From assembly GCA_038400315.1 (NCBI GenBank), contig CP151667.1, forward strand, positions 5,467,174-5,531,173: a stretch of 64,000 nt of DNA, in the 5' to 3' direction. The translations under genes and the position numbers were made by a program. The notes beneath the pieces were generated by a model. It was given only the letters and a program-made list of their open reading frames with translations, did no database searches and had not been told where the DNA came from. Every line of letters starts with the position of its first letter. Position 1 is the stretch's first letter. This stretch comes from Isosphaeraceae bacterium EP7 (GTDB lineage: Bacteria; Planctomycetota; Planctomycetia; Isosphaerales; Isosphaeraceae). Positions 45,974-64,000 of this stretch are shown here, piece by piece.

Positions 45974-46047
<74 letters not shown>

Positions 46048-49723: not shown

Positions 49724-50218
49724 TTATTCGAACTCGCTGTTGTTGGACATCGCGTCCATCCACTCGCTGGCCTCATCAAGGCCAATGATCGCGTCGGTTA
49801 GGTCTCTCGGCTGGCAGAGCAGCGCAGGCCACTCTGGGATAAAGTCCGAGACGCACCCCCAAGCCTTGACGGTATAGCCCCAAGGGAACCTAGGGGCGCT
49901 GAAGACGTAAGTCCTCATCCTGCCCTTCCGGAACTCTTGAACGCCTTGCTCGGTGATGGTCCTGAACTCGGACGGAGGATCCTCGATCGATCTCCCGGCG
50001 TCGAAGTATTTCGCCGTGAAGGCTTCGACCGCGGCCAACCCTGCGATTGCCGCGGATAGGTTGCAGCTCATGAACGAGCCCCAACGACGATCTCCACATG
50101 TCCGGAACTGCTCGATCAGAAGCTCGCCCTCAATAGCCAGCAGATTCGTGGTCACGCAATCGTAGTCCCACGACTCCACTACCAGCACGTGGTCACCTCT
50201 CTTTCTCGTGTAGTTCAT
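49724..50218 (-). CDS. Paralogue 2 of a small unknown protein family
   Basis: A 164-residue soluble protein, a paralogue of the next gene upstream. Both start with TRKRGDxVL and share YFDA near residue 70 and a C-terminal WPxxLCxxRD element. The first half looks like beta strands then a long helix (SAAIAGLAAVEAFTAKYFDAG). AAAGGAGG lies upstream of the start. The two adjacent paralogues point to a local duplication within the element. No known domain; function unknown. Confidence 0.7.
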   Translation of the reverse strand: MNYTRKRGDHVLVVESWDYDCVTTNLLAIEGELLIEQFRTCGDRRWGSFMSCNLSAAIAGLAAVEAFTAKYFDAGRSIEDPPSEFRTITEQGVQEFRKGRMRTYVFSAPRFPWGYTVKAWGCVSDFIPEWPALLCQPRDLTDAIIGLDEASEWMDAMSNNSEFE

Positions 50219-50238: not shown

Positions 50239-50763
50239 TTACGCTTTGTCCTCGGTCTCTCTGACGACCTCGTCCACCACGCGAAGTGCGAAGTCGAGCG
50301 CCGGGATGTCGCGGAACCGGCACAGCACAAAGGGCCAGCCCTCGACGGTGCCGGAGGCGTATCCCATGAACGCAGACTCGGCGACGTAGTTCGCGGCGAA
50401 GCTCGGAGTGATGACGTATTCGCCGCTCCCTTTCGCTTCGATCTCGAACTGCTCGTAGGGGTCGAGACCTCTTTGGGGGTAAGCCTCCGCCAGATACTCC
50501 TCGTAGGCTTCGTCGACGTATTCCCGAAGGAACCGATCGGCGTCGAAGTATCTCCGCATGAACTCCCCCATATCCACCAACGCCTGGGCCGCCTGGGTCA
50601 CGTCATTCTGCGTGAGCGTCCCCCGACGCCGCCCCGCGTCGTCGATCCGGACCTGCTCGACGTAAAGCGCGCCGCGGGCGACCAGGAGGCTCGTGGAAAC
50701 GCTCCCGTAGCTCCATGTCTCCAGCTCCAGCACGCGGTCACCTCTCTTTCTTGTTTGACTCAT
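50239..50763 (-). CDS. Paralogue 1 of a small unknown protein family
   Basis: A 174-residue acidic protein. It shares with the downstream gene the start TRKRGDRVL, the pattern of small beta strands followed by a helix, the YFDA motif (RRYFDADRFL) and C-terminal WPFVLCRFRD. The first coding bases are also nearly identical in nucleotide sequence (GAGAGGTGACC). A central segment DEAYEEYLAEAYPQ is helical and acidic. It may bind nucleic acid or another element protein, which is only a guess. Confidence 0.7.
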   Translation of the reverse strand: MSQTRKRGDRVLELETWSYGSVSTSLLVARGALYVEQVRIDDAGRRRGTLTQNDVTQAAQALVDMGEFMRRYFDADRFLREYVDEAYEEYLAEAYPQRGLDPYEQFEIEAKGSGEYVITPSFAANYVAESAFMGYASGTVEGWPFVLCRFRDIPALDFALRVVDEVVRETEDKA

Positions 50764-51575: not shown

Positions 51576-53513
51576 TCAGGACATCTCCCGAAGCTGTCTC
51601 AGAACCTCCTCGGCCTGCGGATTGCTCGGGGGCTTCTTGCGCCCGCGCACCTTCAGCGGAGGAGGTGGTGTCTTGGGTTTCGGCGGCGGAGGCGGTTCAT
51701 CGCCGTCATCCTCGTCATCGTCCTCGTCGTCGTCGGGCAGGTTCTTCTCGTCGCCACTCGGAGCGACGGCGACGAACTTGTGGCGAAGCTCGGCACCGAG
51801 GAAGGTCGTGACGCCGTCGGGCTCGGGGAATTCGGTGGCACGGATCGACTCGACGAGGGCGAGCGACATGGGAAAATCAAAAGTGATAAACTGCGGCCCG
51901 TTGAGCCGGGTGAAGCCGGTGTCGGGCGACGCCTCGATGATCGCCAGCTCTCGGGTGGAGTTGAGCATCTCGATCTCGTCGGGGCCGAACCACGGCGCCT
52001 CGACCTCTCGCGTCGAGACGGTGGTCGCGTAGCTCGTGCCGGTCGAGGCCTCGGTCACCGTGCGCGTCCGGCCGTTCTCGATCTTCGCCCGCACGCCGCC
52101 GATGGTTGCCAGCCGCTTGCGCCCCGAGTCGTCCATCGCGGTGAAGGTGATCTTGACCGGCAGGTTCGCGGTCAGCGAATCCGTGAAGTCCTTCTCCCGC
52201 GTCTTCGCGTCGGACAGGTTCTGCATCGTCGCGATGATGGACACTCGGCAGTCCCTCGCCTGCTTGATGATGAAGTCGATCGTCCTCTGGAGGATGACGT
52301 TGATCTCGTCGATGACCAGGTAGACGTGCGGCCCCCGGTCTCCCCGCGAGCGGGCGGCGCTATACGCGAGCCGGGCCACCATGCGGCCGATGGTGCGGGC
52401 CGCGATCTCGCCCACGCTCGGGGCGAGCGAGAAGTAGATCACCATCCGCGACAGCATCGCCTGGCCGATGTCGATCTGGGGGACGTTCGGGTTGATCACG
52501 TTGATCTGGGGCAGCTCGGCCAGCTCGCGAATGGTATTGATCGCTTCCGTCGCGTCCTTGATGTCCTTGGCGCTGAGCTTCATCGCCTTGCGGAACTTGC
52601 GATCCATGGCGATGGAATACATCTCCCCCCACGAGTCGACGTCGGGCCTGTATTTGAAGATCGCGGCGATGAGGGTCCGCGCCACCCCGGCGAAATACGA
52701 GTCGCCATACGTGCCACCATGTTCAAGGCCGAAGACCTGGTTGAAGAACTCGGCCTTCTCCGCGGGGCTCATCGACCGGAAGGCCGAATCCCTGAAGATG
52801 CTCCAGACGCTGGTCGGGATGTCGAGGCTATTCGAGAAGCAGAGGAACAGCGCGCCGAACATGACGCAGAGACACTTCATGCACTTCATCAAGAGCCGAT
52901 CGCCCTTTGCGTCGATGAGCAGGATGGACCCCATGCCGCGCATCAGGATCTGGATGACGATGGCGAGCATGGCCCGCATGGTCTTGCCCGAGTTGATCGC
53001 GCCCTGGATTAGGCAGCCGACGTCGAGCAGCCCGCCGAACTTGACGAGGTTCGGGGCCTCCGTATCCTTGAACTTGCCGAGCATAGCGTGATCGGCCTCA
53101 AGCTCGTGCGGCGAGTCGGCGAGGGCCTGCATGGTCTTCATCTGCCAGTCATCACTGACGGGGGTCTCCTCCAAGAGCTGATTGAGCTTCTCGATCGCGA
53201 TCTTCGGCTCGGGACTGGCCGGGCCGAATTCGATGGCGAGATCGTTCGCGGACGCGAGTGGTTTGCGGAAGAAGGGGCCGAACCAAAGGAAGGCCATCCC
53301 GAGGAGGCCCGTCGCGGCTTCGAGCACCTTATCCACATCGGTCCTCATGTTGGCTGTGAACACCGCGGTGATCGCGAGGCCGAACCCCATCACCCACCAC
53401 CGGAAGAGCTTGATCTGTTTCAAGCGTTCGCTCTCGTAGAACGGCAGGAGGCGCTTGGCCATCACCGTCCCCTTGGTGTCGGGGAGTTCCTTCCACTTCA
53501 CGGGCCAGTTCAT
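51576..53513 (-). CDS. VirD4/TraD-type coupling ATPase
   Basis: A 645-residue type IV coupling protein candidate. Two N-terminal membrane helices (about residues 37-56 and 64-82) are followed by an ATPase domain with Walker A GAINSGKT at 171-178, the VirD4-like motif LLIDAKGD at 198-205 and Walker B VYLVIDE at 397-403. A later motif (CRVSIIATMQNLSD) matches the Q-loop region of TraG/TraD ATPases. The C-terminal tail is strongly acidic, then Pro-rich (from about residue 590). Such ATPases bring a DNA-protein complex to a secretion channel in conjugation. Its start overlaps the stop of the winged-helix gene (ATGA). A typical channel (VirB) set is not seen in the window. Confidence 0.85.
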   Translation of the reverse strand: MNWPVKWKELPDTKGTVMAKRLLPFYESERLKQIKLFRWWVMGFGLAITAVFTANMRTDVDKVLEAATGLLGMAFLWFGPFFRKPLASANDLAIEFGPASPEPKIAIEKLNQLLEETPVSDDWQMKTMQALADSPHELEADHAMLGKFKDTEAPNLVKFGGLLDVGCLIQGAINSGKTMRAMLAIVIQILMRGMGSILLIDAKGDRLLMKCMKCLCVMFGALFLCFSNSLDIPTSVWSIFRDSAFRSMSPAEKAEFFNQVFGLEHGGTYGDSYFAGVARTLIAAIFKYRPDVDSWGEMYSIAMDRKFRKAMKLSAKDIKDATEAINTIRELAELPQINVINPNVPQIDIGQAMLSRMVIYFSLAPSVGEIAARTIGRMVARLAYSAARSRGDRGPHVYLVIDEINVILQRTIDFIIKQARDCRVSIIATMQNLSDAKTREKDFTDSLTANLPVKITFTAMDDSGRKRLATIGGVRAKIENGRTRTVTEASTGTSYATTVSTREVEAPWFGPDEIEMLNSTRELAIIEASPDTGFTRLNGPQFITFDFPMSLALVESIRATEFPEPDGVTTFLGAELRHKFVAVAPSGDEKNLPDDDEDDDEDDGDEPPPPPKPKTPPPPLKVRGRKKPPSNPQAEEVLRQLREMS

Positions 53514-54196
53514 TGGGGCTTCTTCTTTCTTCTCGTGAGGAGATTGAGGAGTTCCGGCACGACCACCGTGATCGCGCGGAACTTGGAGGTGTCATTGCGG
53601 AGTGCCTGCCGCACCCGCTCGGCCTTGGACCGGACCGCGGTGATGATCGTTATCTGTGCGGCATCCCGTGCGAAGGTCTCGTGCCAGGCTTGGCTGTTAT
53701 CGGCCCGCCCGGTGTAGGCTTTGCGCACCTTGTGGGCGAGTTGCTTGCTGCTCAGGCTGTACTCGGGGACGAGGATGCCGAGTCGCGTCATGTTCGGGTC
53801 GCTTCGGTCGACGTAATACCTCGATGCGCAGACCTTGCCGATGTCGAGTTGGGGGAACCGCGCCCGGAACTCGGCTCGGGGGATCCGGCTCTGCCGGTGC
53901 TGACCCAGGAAGCAGAAGGCGGCGATGGCCAGGTTCTCGGCGATGGACTGCTCGCCCGGCGGCCTGCGGTAGGCTTTCGGATCGAGCCCGAGCGTCTCCG
54001 CCCCGAGCGCGGTGAGATAGTAGATGTGGGCGTTGCCGCGATAGGCGTGGCTCGCCACGAGCCCGAACTGCTTGAGTTGGAGCAGGTGCTTCTCCATGCA
54101 CTTGGCGCCCACGTCCCCGAGGGCGACGATGAGCAGTTCCTTCGTCGCCGCGCGATAATCGCGGAGGATGATGAGGGTTCGTTCTTTTGTGGTCAT
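53510..54196 (-). CDS. Replication-relaxation-like winged-helix protein
   Basis: A 228-residue protein. The N-terminal part has a winged-helix-like pattern (LIILRDYRAATKELLIVAL, then KHLLQLKQFGLVASHAY with AHIYYLTALGAE). The next part matches the replication-relaxation family found beside VirD4-type ATPases in actinobacterial mobile elements. ATG 54196 forms a TGATG overlap with the upstream gene, and an in-frame GTG at 54199 is rejected. Its stop overlaps the coupling ATPase start. It probably binds element DNA at a replication or transfer origin. The family match is by motif order and neighbourhood, not proven. Confidence 0.68.
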   Translation of the reverse strand: MTTKERTLIILRDYRAATKELLIVALGDVGAKCMEKHLLQLKQFGLVASHAYRGNAHIYYLTALGAETLGLDPKAYRRPPGEQSIAENLAIAAFCFLGQHRQSRIPRAEFRARFPQLDIGKVCASRYYVDRSDPNMTRLGILVPEYSLSSKQLAHKVRKAYTGRADNSQAWHETFARDAAQITIITAVRSKAERVRQALRNDTSKFRAITVVVPELLNLLTRRKKKPQ

Positions 54197-54813
54197 CACC
54201 AGACCTCGAGACAGAGGCCCGCGGCCCTGCAGGCGGAAATCATCTTCCGCAGCCGGTTGGCGCTATATGACTTGCCGCCGTATTCGATGGCCCGCACGGG
54301 ATAGCCCGAGGGGTGGAGGGCGACGATGTCCGGAGCGAAGTTGCGGATCCTCCGGCGACGACGGGCCGTGTAGAACTTGTCCGATACCCAGCCGATGACC
54401 GAGCCGGGGTCGATTTCGCGAGAGGCGAGGTAGACCTGCGGCAGCATCAGGTCGTGCGAGATCTCAAACGGCTTGTTGAGCTTCGGCGGCGGGCAGCCGA
54501 TCAGGTTCGCCCCCTTGATGGTGAGGTGATAAAACTCGGTGTCACGCGGGGCGTTCACATGTCGCTCACCCAGCGCGTAGCTCCATTGGCCGAGGCAGCT
54601 CGGGATCGGTGCCTCTGGATGTGTAGAGAAGAGCGGCATCAGCAGCGGCGTTGGGCGGCTGACGATGGCGCGAGAACATGCGAGGAGTCCATACTTCATG
54701 GCGCGAATGATCGCGCCGCGGGCGGGCTCCTGAAGAAGCGGGTCGGCCTGGTCCGCGGTGAAGACCGGGAGAATGCGGCCGAGGTCGACCAATCTCAAGG
54801 CGCAGGGGTCCAT
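54196..54813 (-). CDS. Putative nuclease-like companion of the replication-relaxation protein
   Basis: A 205-residue protein. The C-terminal region has FAPDIVALHPSGYPVRAIEYGG, a PD..xE-like arrangement similar to the nuclease-fold part of replication-relaxation proteins. The N-terminal part has no recognised domain. ATG 54813 has GGAGG 6 nt upstream and the stop shares a base with the next start. It could supply a nuclease-like function that the winged-helix partner lacks, as if one family protein had been split in two. This is an inference from motif shape; the exact catalytic residues are not certain. Confidence 0.6.
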   Translation of the reverse strand: MDPCALRLVDLGRILPVFTADQADPLLQEPARGAIIRAMKYGLLACSRAIVSRPTPLLMPLFSTHPEAPIPSCLGQWSYALGERHVNAPRDTEFYHLTIKGANLIGCPPPKLNKPFEISHDLMLPQVYLASREIDPGSVIGWVSDKFYTARRRRRIRNFAPDIVALHPSGYPVRAIEYGGKSYSANRLRKMISACRAAGLCLEVW

Positions 54814-54867
54814 GCGCACCTCCGGAGGGCGTGTGGGTGGATCGGAACGGGGCGCACGAAGTCCCCG

Positions 54868-54892
54868 ACGCCGCAAAGCGCGGCGTTTTCTT
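54868..54892 (+). terminator. Plus-strand terminator upstream of the antisense RNA cassette
   Basis: CGCCGC (54869-54874) pairs with GCGGCG (54880-54885) around AAAGC, then TTTTCTT. No plus-strand gene ends here, so it would stop antisense reading from the region to the left. Confidence 0.6.
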
Positions 54893-54913
54893 ATGGATGG
54901 ATTGGGATCGGAA

Positions 54914-55021
54914 TTGACCCGGGCGGGGCAGGCGGTAAGATGGGCTTGCTGAGGGCTCTTACGCGCCAAGCGTCAGGGTCGGAACCCCTCGACACCGCCA
55001 AGTGCCGGGGGGTTCTTCTTT
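54914..55021 (+). ncRNA. Candidate small antisense RNA cassette (promoter to terminator)
   Basis: TTGACC (54914-54919) and TAAGAT (54936-54941) are spaced 16 bp apart, close to a sigma-70 consensus on the plus strand. The predicted start near 54948 leads after about 35 nt into a long hairpin (54982-54995 with 55002-55015, one mismatch) with the tail TTCTTCTTT, giving an RNA of about 75 nt. The opposite strand is the 214-bp gap between two leftward genes, upstream of the transfer operon, so the RNA would pair with that leader. It resembles FinP of the F plasmid in size, position and orientation. It has not been tested for expression. Confidence 0.5.
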
Positions 55022-55027
55022 CCGCCT

Positions 55028-55885
55028 CTATGAGACCACGAGATACCTCCCGACGCCCGAGGCGTCACAATAGGCCTTGAGGTCGCTGGCGAGTTGCGCC
55101 CGCGCATTCTCCGAAGCCACCTCGTTGCCCGTGGCCAGGTATAACGCGACCTTCTCTCCGGCCGCGGGCCTGAACATCGACGCGAGCCGCGCCGCCGGCT
55201 CTCCGGCTCGTCTCGGGGGCCCGAGCTTGTAGCCGGTGATCACCGCGTGGGGGACGAACTCGCTCCCGAGCGTCACGGCCGGGTCCCACTTCTCGTGGAG
55301 CTTGCGCTGGCCGTCGGCCTCGCCTAGCCGGTCCCACAGCTCCAGGAAGAGCGTGGTGACGGCCGAACGGATGACGAGCTCGGTGATCTCGTCATGCGAC
55401 CGGGTATGGCGAAGAGCGACGCGCTCGACCCAAGGCGCGTGCTTCGCGAGGTAATAAATCCGAGCCTCATCGCCCGGGGCCTTCTTCTTCTTCTTGCCGT
55501 AAATGTTTTCGATCAAATCATCATCAAGGATGGTCGTCGACCGAGAAAGCGGGGTCGGGTTGGCCGGAGGGGGTAGAGCAGGAAGAACCTCCTCAGGGAA
55601 CGCGAGCTCGGGATTGTACGCGGGGGTGATGATCGGCAACGACGGGATGAGCGCGGTGCGAAGTCCTAACTCGGGGCACTTCTCCATCAGCGTCGAGTTG
55701 ATGACCTTGATGATCTTCAGGTGCTCGGAGCGTGGTGCGTCCCCGCAGTAAGGTCTGACGAAGTCGTGGTCGGCGTAATTGGCGGCGCGCATGAACACCG
55801 CGGCGTCGAGCACCTCAAGCATTAGCCGGACGTTGGGAGATGCCTTCAACTCTTCGGGCGAAGGCAGGGGGAAGGTCTCGGACAT
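55028..55885 (-). CDS. Protein of unknown function, first gene of the leftward transfer set
   Basis: A 285-residue soluble protein with no recognised domain. The N-terminal part is helical (NVRLMLEVLDAAVFMRAANY), a Pro-rich linker lies at about residues 90-115, and a basic patch GKKKKKA follows near residue 130. The C-terminal part has alpha/beta segments with VALYLATGNEVASENARAQ. The start at 55885 is the best in-frame ATG but lies 5 nt after a hairpin that covers the ribosome-binding region. It is 214 bp upstream of the transfer genes and may be transcribed with them. Confidence 0.65.
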   Translation of the reverse strand: MSETFPLPSPEELKASPNVRLMLEVLDAAVFMRAANYADHDFVRPYCGDAPRSEHLKIIKVINSTLMEKCPELGLRTALIPSLPIITPAYNPELAFPEEVLPALPPPANPTPLSRSTTILDDDLIENIYGKKKKKAPGDEARIYYLAKHAPWVERVALRHTRSHDEITELVIRSAVTTLFLELWDRLGEADGQRKLHEKWDPAVTLGSEFVPHAVITGYKLGPPRRAGEPAARLASMFRPAAGEKVALYLATGNEVASENARAQLASDLKAYCDASGVGRYLVVS

Positions 55886-56341
55886 GAAAACAGCCGCCTC
55901 GATGATCGTGTGAGACGACCACCCGGCGGCTGGAGTGTCTTGAGAGACGCGCGGCCCCTACAGGACCGCGCATCTTTGTTCGACCTCTTTACCCGACGGC
56001 TGGTTCGCCTGTCAGTGCACGAGCGATTGCCCGCGCTTGTCTGAATGTCTGGAGGAACCGAGGTTTCGGAATCCACTCCACGCGCATCGTCTGTCGCACG
56101 TGGCAGCTTTTAGGTTAGGCGGCGGTGTTGCCACCCGTCAATCCGAAAATCTAGAATTTCGACCAGAATTTCGAAAACCACTCTTCGCTATCCATCTGTG
56201 TACTGCGGTGCTAAGTAGTGAAAATATGAACATGTGTAGTGACTAGCCCTGATCCGCCCGGCATTCCCCAATGCCGAGCGGGTTCGGCGCATGAAAGGTT
56301 TTTCATGGACCGGCCCGTTCGCCCTTTACCGAGGAGCGAAC
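55886..56341 (+). promoter_or_regulatory. Divergent control region with AT-rich repeats and hairpins
   Basis: This 456-bp gap separates the leftward transfer set from the rightward DUF932 gene. On the left are an inverted repeat over the leader of the 55885 gene (55891-55898 with 55925-55932) and a GC-rich hairpin (55949-55971). In the middle is an AT-rich segment with direct repeats at 56153-56174 and GTAGTGA at 56215-56221 and 56236-56242. On the right are two hairpins at 56254-56281 and 56290-56307. It probably holds both promoters and could be a replication or transfer origin. No protein gene is seen. Confidence 0.5.
56153..56174. repeat. Tandem iteron-like repeat
   Basis: AGAATTTCGA occurs at 56153-56162 and 56165-56174, a 12-bp period, in an AT-rich part of the divergent region. 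The context also gives palindromic TTTCGAAA. Possible binding site for a replication or repressor protein. Confidence 0.5.
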
Positions 56342-61140: not shown

Positions 61141-61472
61141 GCAGCGAAGGGGCGGCCGTGCCGCGGCGTGCCCCGCCGCACGTCGTGTTCGAGGCCGAAT
61201 TTACCCAGTCCAGCCCCCTGACGGGGGAGCGTGCCATGTGGGCGGCGGTCGTCCGCTGCGCCCTGTCCGAAGCACGTCGTCCGCTCCTAGGCAGCGAGGC
61301 GAAAAGCGTCCACAATGAGCCCCGTAGGGAGGCGCGGAAGTGGTTCAGGAAACGCTCGCGCGACTACATCGGCGGCTGGGGTTGGATCATCGACTCCGTA
61401 GGCATCTCGCCGCACATGGTTAAACGCATCGAAGCAGCGGCGAAGGCCAGCACAAGGCGGGATGGCGGGTGA
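61137..61472 (+). CDS. Small protein of unknown function, coupled to tape-measure-like gene
   Basis: A 111-residue protein from TTG 61137 (in-frame GTG at 61158 is an alternative). The C-terminal half (EARKWFRKRSRDYIGGWGWI, then IDSVGISPHMVKRIEA) resembles small helix-turn-helix-like proteins found near replication or structural genes of phages and integrative elements. The start overlaps the upstream stop, and its stop overlaps the start of the next gene by 11 bp. No family assigned. Confidence 0.6.
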   Translation: MSSEGAAVPRRAPPHVVFEAEFTQSSPLTGERAMWAAVVRCALSEARRPLLGSEAKSVHNEPRREARKWFRKRSRDYIGGWGWIIDSVGISPHMVKRIEAAAKASTRRDGG

Positions 61473-64000
61473 AATCCGAGACGTAGCCCTCAAGATTCGC
61501 TTGGACACGGGCGAAACCGAGGCCGCGTTGAAGCGACTCAAGGACCAGTACGACTCGCTCGGAAAGGGCGGCGGCGGCTTCGACAAGGGCACCGACAAGG
61601 CCAAGCAGAGCTTCACCGAGCTGAATAGCTCCTTAGAACTGGTCAAGAAGGGATTCTACGGGGTCCAGACTGTCTTCGATTCGCTGGTCGCCGTCATCAA
61701 CCGCGGCCAGGGCGTCAGCGAGCTATCCGCCGCGTTCGGCACCCTCCAGTCGGCAGCGGGTTCTCTCGCGTCGAACGAGCTCCAACAACTCCGCACGGCC
61801 ACCCAGGGGCTCCTGAGCGACACGGAGCTGATGCGGGCCGCGAACGAGGCCCTCGCTTCCGGGCTCAAGCCGGAGCAGTTCAACAAGGTGGCCGAAGCCG
61901 CGGACGCGCTCGGCGACGCCTTCGGGAAGAACACCAAGGTCGCGCTCGACGACCTGACTCGGGCCCTCGTCACCGGCCAGGAGAAGCTCCTCAAGCAATA
62001 CGGGATTCAGATCGATAACGCGAAGGCGGAGAAGGAATTCGCGGCATCGATCGGAATAACGGCCAAGCAGCTCAACGAAGCCGGAAAGCTCGAAGCCGCC
62101 CGAATCGCAATCCTAGACGAGATCGTCAAGAAGAGCGGTGAAGTGGCGGGCGGCACGGAGACCGCTGGCGACGCGGTCCAGAGGCTGGGCGTCTCGTTCA
62201 ACAACACGCTCGACACGATCTCCCAATACATCAACGAAGCGTCGGGCGTGGTCGCCGTATTCGACGCGATCTCGAACGCCGCAGCCAAAGCCGCCACGCT
62301 CAGCGAAGCCTACTTCGGGAAGAGCATCCAGTCCCAGCTCTTTCGGGCGAAGGAGAACCTCAGGACGCTCGAGACCGGTTCCTCGAACTTCGACATCTCG
62401 TTCCGCGAGAGCGAGGCGGGCCAGAAGCAGATCCGGGAAGTCACCGACGAGATAAAGAGGCTCGAGGCCGAGGCCGGAAAGGCGGCGACCGAGACCGCGA
62501 AGATCAAGACCGAGATCGATAAGACCGGCAACTCGACGGAGGCGCTGAGGCAGAAATACACCGACTTCGGCAAGACCAGCGAGGAGGCGAATAAAAAGGC
62601 GGAGGAGGCGGCCAAGAAGCTGCTCGCGGTCCAGGACGACCTGCGAAACACGCTGACGCAGTCCACCAGTGCGAACACGCTGAAGCCGCTCGCTGACCAG
62701 CTCGACAAGGCATTCGGCGAAAGCTTTTCCCCACAGAACGCGACTGCAGCATTCGATAAGTACATCACCGCGTTTCGATCGTCGGTCACCACCGAGCTGC
62801 AGACGAAATACAAAGATCAGCTCGGAGACGCGACCGTCCAGGGGATGATCCAGGGAATCACCGACTCGAAGGTAGCCGAGGCGACCTACGAATTCTCCAA
62901 GCAGCTCGAAGAGGCCACGAAGCAAGCGTTTCAGGGGACCGTCGATTTCTTTGCGGACATCTTCACGTCCAGCATCGACGGCAGTGCCCAAAGCATCGAG
63001 CAAACGCTGAAGGACGCGCTCAAGAGGGTCGCCGTAGGTTTCGCGAGCCAGATCGCGGCCAACATTGCGTCATCCGCCGGGTTGACTGGTCTGTCCAACG
63101 TGGGCTCCGCCCAAGGGCTCGGCCAGTCCATTGCCGCCACCTTCGGCTTTGAGGGCGGCGGGGTTAAGGGCCTGACAGACCTCTTCTCCGCTCCCGGCAT
63201 CCAACTCACCGCATCGGCTACGGCGCTCGACGGATCTGCCGCGGCGCTCACGGCTGCGGCTGGGGCGCTCGCTCAAGGCGGGCTCGGAGGGCAGCTTGGC
63301 GGACTTGCCGGGGGCGATGGTCCCTTCGGCGGCGTCACCGGAAGCGGCGGCGTCACCGGGACCGGATTTGAAAAAGTGGCCGGCTCGATTGGTTCGGAAA
63401 CGCTTCCATCAACCATTTTCGTCCAAGCCGGGATCGTTGGCGCGATCGCGGGCGCTGGGGTCATCGCCTATAACGCGATCAAGGAGTTCGACAAATCGAA
63501 CAAGAGCTTCAGCGATGCCGGGAAAGCTGGCGCGCAGACCTACTTCGCAGGCGACGTTACCGGTATCTCTCAGACGGCCTTCGCGGCGTATGCAGCTTTC
63601 GGCCTTGGTGGGAACCCGAGGCTCGCACAAGAGCGAGAAGGCCGGGCGGCAGGGATCGATCAGATTCTCGAACTCTTCGGCCAGGCGGGAAAACAAGACC
63701 TTCCCAAATTCCAGGGGATCAACGGCCTTCTCACTCTCGACGATAAGAAATTCAACATTGATCAACCCAAGGGCTCGAAGGAAGCTTTCGCGGTTGGGCT
63801 GGCCAACCCGCTCGCTCAGATCGTCTCTGGTGGCGACGAGAAGCTGACGAACGACTTCGCCGCGATCTTTGCGAACGCAACCAGCGACGCCGACAACTTC
63901 AACGAGGTGATCGCGAATACGCTCTCGCTCATGGACAGTTTGGGCTTCAACGCGGCAGACGCTAAGAAGAACCTTTCGGACACCTTTCTCGACGGAAAGC
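61462..64000 (+). CDS. Phage tape-measure-like protein, 5' part
   Basis: The frame is open from ATG 61462 to the window end, giving at least 846 residues with the C terminus missing. The N-terminal part has the repeated helix-loop pattern and motifs of tape-measure proteins (LDTGETEAALKRLKDQYD; KLLKQYGIQIDNAKAEKEF; LEAARIAILDEIVKKSG). A long coiled-coil stretch (about residues 310-400) and Gly/Ala-rich hydrophobic segments (about 525-620 and 650-670) follow. In siphophages such proteins set tail length and help DNA entry. Here no tail tube, terminase or capsid gene lies before it; instead a resolvase and a small protein do. The start overlaps the previous gene by 11 bp. Confidence 0.78.
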   Translation, partial: MAGEIRDVALKIRLDTGETEAALKRLKDQYDSLGKGGGGFDKGTDKAKQSFTELNSSLELVKKGFYGVQTVFDSLVAVINRGQGVSELSAAFGTLQSAAGSLASNELQQLRTATQGLLSDTELMRAANEALASGLKPEQFNKVAEAADALGDAFGKNTKVALDDLTRALVTGQEKLLKQYGIQIDNAKAEKEFAASIGITAKQLNEAGKLEAARIAILDEIVKKSGEVAGGTETAGDAVQRLGVSFNNTLDTISQYINEASGVVAVFDAISNAAAKAATLSEAYFGKSIQSQLFRAKENLRTLETGSSNFDISFRESEAGQKQIREVTDEIKRLEAEAGKAATETAKIKTEIDKTGNSTEALRQKYTDFGKTSEEANKKAEEAAKKLLAVQDDLRNTLTQSTSANTLKPLADQLDKAFGESFSPQNATAAFDKYITAFRSSVTTELQTKYKDQLGDATVQGMIQGITDSKVAEATYEFSKQLEEATKQAFQGTVDFFADIFTSSIDGSAQSIEQTLKDALKRVAVGFASQIAANIASSAGLTGLSNVGSAQGLGQSIAATFGFEGGGVKGLTDLFSAPGIQLTASATALDGSAAALTAAAGALAQGGLGGQLGGLAGGDGPFGGVTGSGGVTGTGFEKVAGSIGSETLPSTIFVQAGIVGAIAGAGVIAYNAIKEFDKSNKSFSDAGKAGAQTYFAGDVTGISQTAFAAYAAFGLGGNPRLAQEREGRAAGIDQILELFGQAGKQDLPKFQGINGLLTLDDKKFNIDQPKGSKEAFAVGLANPLAQIVSGGDEKLTNDFAAIFANATSDADNFNEVIANTLSLMDSLGFNAADAKKNLSDTFLDGK

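Follow-up and report, generated by a model that had tools for sequence, protein, structure and literature searches.

FinP is 79 nt long, folds into two stem-loops (SLI and SLII) followed by a 3' uridine tail (PMC8136791), and, helped by FinO, masks the ribosome-binding site of traJ (PMC9977716). A FinP-like antisense RNA of a mobile element, RepX of pRSF1010, likewise has two stem-loops (PMC8136791). In phage lambda, the 77-nt OOP RNA has its own promoter and terminator and brings about cutting by RNase III close to the cII 3' end (PMC5415839, PMC5869508). The temperate phage P22 makes the small RNA sar from its own promoter, antisense to ant (PMC13397905).

We analysed a window of 64,000 nucleotides of the chromosome of Isosphaeraceae bacterium EP7, where a first-pass annotation had placed a FinP-like antisense RNA cassette over the leader of a transfer operon. 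As predicted from its DNA, the segment 54914-55022 is likely a complete small-RNA gene, with promoter, two hairpins and terminator, facing against its neighbours (Table 1). We regard it as a credible, though unproven, small-RNA gene belonging to a prophage-like element, a known kind of thing and not FinP.

Table 1. Features of the predicted small-RNA gene, its neighbours and the attachment sites (window positions except where indicated)
Feature	Position	Strand	Remarks
3' end of tRNA-Arg(ACG), left attachment site	46003..46047	+	element starts here
TraG/TraD-type coupling-protein-like ATPase	51576..53513	-	PF12696 24.1 bits, over cut-off; SXT_TraD 4.5e-9, below cut-off
Second winged-helix/Replic_Relax-like gene	53510..54199	-	PF13814 E 0.007, below cut-off; same order in relatives
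Gene downstream of the gap: winged-helix protein, weakly Replic_Relax-like	54196..54813	-	ATG at 54813 with GGAGG
Weak terminator-like hairpin, left of the cassette	54867..54887	+	indistinguishable from chance; about 1 such site per 2 kb arises in shuffles
Sigma-70-type promoter TTGACC-N16-TAAGAT	54914..54941	+	9/12 match
Predicted small RNA, about 75 nt	about 54948..55022	+	start set 7 nt after the -10, end placed by the terminator
Stem-loop 1	54954..54980	+	loop GCCAA 54965-54969; -14 kcal/mol, z -2.05
Stem-loop 2, intrinsic terminator hairpin	54981..55016	+	loop CGCCAA 54996-55001; -22.5 kcal/mol, z -3.48, 0/200 shuffles as stable
Orphan gene upstream of the gap	55028..55885	-	positive codon score
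Right attachment-site copy	genome C1:5601041-5601084, outside the window		44-bp repeat, 3 mismatches; not a tRNA gene

The cassette and its genomic background

The promoter motif, the fold, the tail, the orientation and the element context are shown by the sequence and by computed folding. The promoter is present on the plus strand as the first-pass annotation had it, inside a gap that indeed measures 214 bp (54814-55027). The strong hairpin announced about 35 nt after the start, with its T-rich tail, was also recovered, the terminator stem beginning 33 nt after the predicted start near 54948. The -10 hexamer TAAGAT agrees with the consensus at no more than 4 of 6 positions, with a spacer of 16 nt, and this weighs against the reading as a small-RNA gene; no further promoter-like site of at least 7/12 was found when both strands of the gap were scanned. 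By contrast, the second plus-strand terminator that had been proposed at 54868-54892 as an insulator on the left could not be upheld, as its z was -1.36 and 21 of 200 shuffles were as stable.

Folding of the whole 75-nt predicted RNA gave -37 kcal/mol (z -3.39; 1/200 shuffles as stable), with pair probabilities of 0.86-1.0. Stem-loop 1, which was absent from the earlier description, lies directly 5' of the terminator stem-loop 2, and the 7-mer CGCCAAG is common to both apical loops. Stem-loop 2 is followed by the tail TCTTTC, and the T-rich tract TTCTTCTTT ends at 55021 on the plus strand; no U-tail follows the same hairpin on the minus strand. In samples of this genome, tail-less 3'-end hairpins after genes were not enriched (mean -14.4 vs -14.2 kcal/mol in shuffled DNA). 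Since only the plus side has a T-tract, and this genome shows no enrichment of tail-less hairpins behind stop codons, the hairpin appears to serve plus-strand transcription.

The frequency of such signals was estimated on a background of 400 kb sampled from the same chromosome, with genes called by codon bias and one fixed rule each for the promoter scan and the scan for U-tailed hairpins. The promoter rule matched 39 times in 62.6 kb of intergenic DNA vs 9.9 times in shuffles, an enrichment of about 4-fold, and the density of matches was 0.22 per kb in intergenic DNA vs 0.025 in coding DNA. U-tailed hairpins with dG <= -18 were about 6-fold enriched in intergenic DNA (19 vs 3.2 in shuffles). 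None of 3000 dinucleotide shuffles of this gap produced a promoter followed by a terminator on either strand. A census of such cassettes covered 464 kb with 333 called genes and 189 gaps in all, including 115 tandem gaps; among the latter, only this one carries a cassette on the strand opposite its genes. A rough estimate from the census counts gives a chance expectation of about 0.2 such cassettes over all gaps, so that coincidence is unlikely. Together, the enrichment of promoters and hairpins, the absence of cassettes from the 3000 shuffles and the uniqueness among tandem gaps indicate that these signals mean something in this genome, and the background scans favour a real small-RNA gene.

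The gap, the leftward genes and the integrated element

The cassette had been described as lying upstream of leftward transfer genes. These comprise one gene for a TraG/TraD-type ATPase and two for winged-helix proteins that are weakly Replic_Relax-like. Homologues of the 54196-54813 gene, at about 30% identity, occur in Tautonia and other planctomycetes, with a weak Pfam Replic_Relax match in one relative; at the Tautonia loci the two winged-helix genes stand in the same order, and coupling-protein homologues are found on the same contigs. A genome of the same family shares its loci with the Tautonia sociabilis record. Searches of plasmids, phages and viral contigs gave no homologue of the coupling-protein gene. 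On the other side of the gap, the orphan 55028-55885 had no homologue in 392 genomes of the planctomycete phylum or in viral contigs. Its stop codon lies 6 nt past the 3' end of the predicted small RNA, and the stretch of leftward mRNA spacer just beyond that codon is a full complement of the RNA.

Neither a leftward promoter of at least 7/12 nor a leftward terminator was found within the gap, so leftward RNA probably crosses it. As there is no leftward promoter in the gap and no traJ was recognised, the gap is probably an intercistronic spacer, and the placement of the cassette over a transfer-operon leader is not supported. Judged by its promoter motifs, the leftward operon may start at TTGACG-18-TAACCT at 56141 (8/12). 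This minus-strand site and a plus-strand site, TTGCCA-18-TAGAAT at 56128 (10/12), form a pair of overlapping divergent promoter-like sites at 56112-56157, between the leftward operon and the rightward 56342 gene.

The leader of the orphan gene showed signals of its own. Just upstream of the ATG at 55885, the minus-strand segment 55880-55975 contains two strong hairpins (-56.3 kcal/mol, z -8.4, 0/200 shuffles), a fold that is statistically far stronger than that of the small-RNA cassette. The second hairpin is followed by TTTTC and then by the ATG, an attenuator-like arrangement, and no Shine-Dalgarno sequence is visible; the start of the orphan may therefore be wrong, or be controlled by attenuation. 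Within 55921-56003 on the same strand, the 5' arm of the terminator-like hairpin reads CCAGCCGCCGGGT; upstream of it stands a near copy, CCAGCCGTCGGGT, which could compete with it for the 3' arm of the hairpin.

From its gene content and attachment sites, we read the host of the cassette as a prophage-like element of about 88 kb integrated at tRNA-Arg. The right attachment-site copy lies 88 kb rightward of the left tRNA end, and an integrase gene is found downstream of tRNA-Arg. Between the repeats are genes for a terminase (Terminase_6N match), a portal (phrog_145, 4e-25), an endolysin and a probable tape-measure protein (61462-63999, plus strand, weak match), together with a Prim-Pol primase and an Hjc-like nuclease. 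No gene for a type IV secretion (T4SS) channel was recognised among the proteins scanned, a subset of the element's genes, and no relaxase was recognised; the one recognised transfer-type gene of the element is the coupling-protein-like one. Phage head, tail and lysis genes beside a coupling-protein-like ATPase and two Replic_Relax-like genes make an unusual mix for a prophage.

Two further observations concern this element. Of the 3 mismatches in the right attachment-site copy, 2 form matched changes within the T-arm stem; this would be expected if the 3' part of another tRNA-Arg were present at one attachment end. On the minus strand, 49724-50218 and 50239-50763 are adjacent paralogous genes of unknown function, whose 5' ends are 74% identical over 82 nt.

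Comparison with FinP and with phage antisense RNAs

The predicted RNA resembles FinP in its length (about 75 vs 79 nt), its two stem-loops with a U-rich tail, its antisense direction and the proximity of a transfer-type gene. Unlike FinP, it does not reach a ribosome-binding site: its complement in the mRNA lies 135-209 nt upstream of the ATG at 54813, and in the mRNA fold the unpaired probability of the 54813 gene's ribosome-binding site was 0.09 both with and without the antisense duplex. The neighbours on the target side also differ, being the orphan and winged-helix/Replic_Relax-like proteins with no TraJ among them, as does the host element, which is prophage-like. A search of the 7.2-Mb genome with PF04352 (ProQ/FinO) gave no match, the E. 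coli positive control being found, and Rfam matched nothing in the window except a tRNA, so that homology to the FinP family was not found. The suggested likeness to FinP is thus borne out by size, by the two-hairpin-plus-tail anatomy and by the opposite direction, and is contradicted by the position of pairing. The FinP reading fails on mechanism because the predicted RNA is too far from the start codon to block translation initiation. Control of the FinP type, by pairing with a traJ leader, was accordingly discarded, and membership in the FinP family was rejected on the distance and accessibility of the ribosome-binding site, the absence of ProQ/FinO and the identity of the target.

RepX differs from the predicted RNA in two ways: FinO binds it, and it masks the translation start of repA; neither feature applies here. 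On its own, a FinP-like shape with two hairpins and a U tail argues only weakly for a FinP-like function, and the authors of PMC8136791 likewise treat these features as weak evidence.

Among described RNAs, phage antisense RNAs such as lambda OOP appear to be better functional analogues than FinP. The cassette has its own promoter and intrinsic terminator opposite an operon, inside an integrated phage-like element. As with OOP, the RNA would be of similar length (about 75 vs about 77 nt), has a promoter and a terminator of its own, runs in the opposite direction between two genes of a phage operon, and would exert its effect on the mRNA close to where the upstream gene ends. OOP, however, extends over 52 nt of cII, while the predicted RNA ends 6 nt before the stop codon, and its target gene is an orphan; the likeness drawn here is one of arrangement. 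With P22 sar the predicted RNA shares the small size, the antisense direction and the promoter of its own in a phage-type element, but sar pairs with the ant mRNA and blocks its translation, while the pairing predicted here would take place far from the start codon.

On this basis we propose that the cassette is a small-RNA gene of the integrated phage-like element whose product acts in cis, as an antisense RNA, on the spacer of the leftward mRNA through RNase III. RNA polymerase would start at about 54948 from TTGACC-16-TAAGAT and stop at the stem-loop 2 terminator at about 55022. The resulting RNA would be perfectly complementary to the spacer between the orphan 55028-55885 and the winged-helix and coupling-protein genes 54813-51576. 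With leftward read-through across the gap assumed, the two RNAs would pair in cis, perhaps nucleated by the exposed CGCCAAG loops against UUGGC loops of the mRNA. RNase III, again by assumption, would cut the duplex, after which the upstream and the downstream part of the mRNA would each change in stability separately, as with lambda OOP near the 3' end of cII. Covering of a ribosome-binding site would play no part in this action. Transcription, read-through, pairing, cleavage and effect are all steps that we infer, and we hold the explanation as a whole only tentatively, giving it somewhat less than an even chance. Transcription attenuation of the pT181/pIP501 type was considered for the same RNA and rejected, as no U-tailed hairpin was found on the minus strand between 54948 and 54813.

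Alternative readings and conservation

The strongest alternative is an expressed small RNA with targets elsewhere, acting in trans or by binding a protein, in which the CGCCAAG loops would be the working part and the overlap with the spacer incidental. The display of the same 7-mer in both apical loops would suit such a role, as would the self-contained gene, whose RNA barely reaches any coding sequence. However, duplex energies against the gene starts of the element gave no target above background. The best-placed window gene in this ranking was the downstream gene (rank 8 of 323), a rank that stems from gappy duplexes in GC-rich RNA, and the search for trans targets by duplex energy was set aside as uninformative in such RNA, background genes scoring as high or higher. 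The double-loop pattern is moreover common in the coding DNA of the family, so the CGCCAAG repeat may be due to chance. A search for paralogues by CGCCAAG-N18-40-CGCCAAG was rejected too, the listed matches reading as coding repeats (Ala-Lys type). We regard action on distant targets as rather unlikely.

Homologues of the cassette were found neither in 59 relatives, nor elsewhere in its own genome, nor in about 400 genomes of the class, phages and viral contigs. Two weak matches in the class (L108, L109) were rejected, as they had no comparable hairpins and their E-values were at the level of chance for a search of 398 genomes. In 23 locus records with homologues of the 54813 gene, a few of them overlapping records of one place, no promoter and terminator cassette was found upstream on the opposite strand. 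The conservation of promoter and hairpin anticipated for related elements was thus not seen (0/23 loci), at loci that are too distant to decide the matter.

This lack of conservation at distant loci carrying homologues of the neighbouring gene would fit a promoter that fires to give an RNA without a role, or plus-strand transcription that does no more than run into the leftward operon or shield it. Bacteria commonly show pervasive antisense transcription, which also speaks for such interference or housekeeping. An idle promoter would nevertheless have no need of a two-hairpin fold more stable than 199 of 200 shuffles, and we consider this reading improbable.

The cassette may also be no gene at all, but a chance promoter match beside a 3'-end or stabilising hairpin of the leftward mRNA after the orphan stop or, less likely, a structure of an origin of transfer. 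On the minus strand the hairpin does start about 11 nt after the stop of 55028-55885 and folds there at -23.4 kcal/mol, and about one quarter of intergenic promoter matches are expected by chance. Against this, the T-rich tail stands on the plus side with no U-tail on the minus side, tail-less 3'-end hairpins are not enriched here, and no shuffle of the gap yielded a cassette. A tail-less terminator of the orphan gene was rejected in view of the same lack of enrichment. The chance that the segment is not a gene seems small to us.

Still less probable is a two-hairpin RNA with duplicated CGCCAAG loops that, working without FinO/ProQ, would uncouple the coupling-protein/Replic_Relax module from the upstream gene; such an RNA, if real, would be carried by a phage-type element and control a transfer-type module, in contrast to both FinP and OOP. 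Least of all do we expect an RNA of the FinP type, which would pair with the leader of a transfer activator, block its translation with a FinO-like chaperone and repress conjugation: its size, its two stem-loops and 3' tail, its own promoter, its opposite direction and the nearby TraG/TraD-like gene speak for it, and they are outweighed by a pairing site 135-209 nt from the start codon, an accessibility of the ribosome-binding site that the duplex leaves at 0.09, the lack of a ProQ/FinO domain in the genome, of TraJ, of a promoter that would make the gap a leader and of a recognised T4SS channel gene, and the phage structural genes of the element.

The preferred reading remains that of a cis-antisense RNA gene carried by an integrated phage-like element. 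In our literature search we met with no paper whose main subject was planctomycete small RNAs or transcription starts. As read from its DNA, the locus would offer a compact, testable case of antisense control in a planctomycete integrated element with no detected FinO/ProQ.
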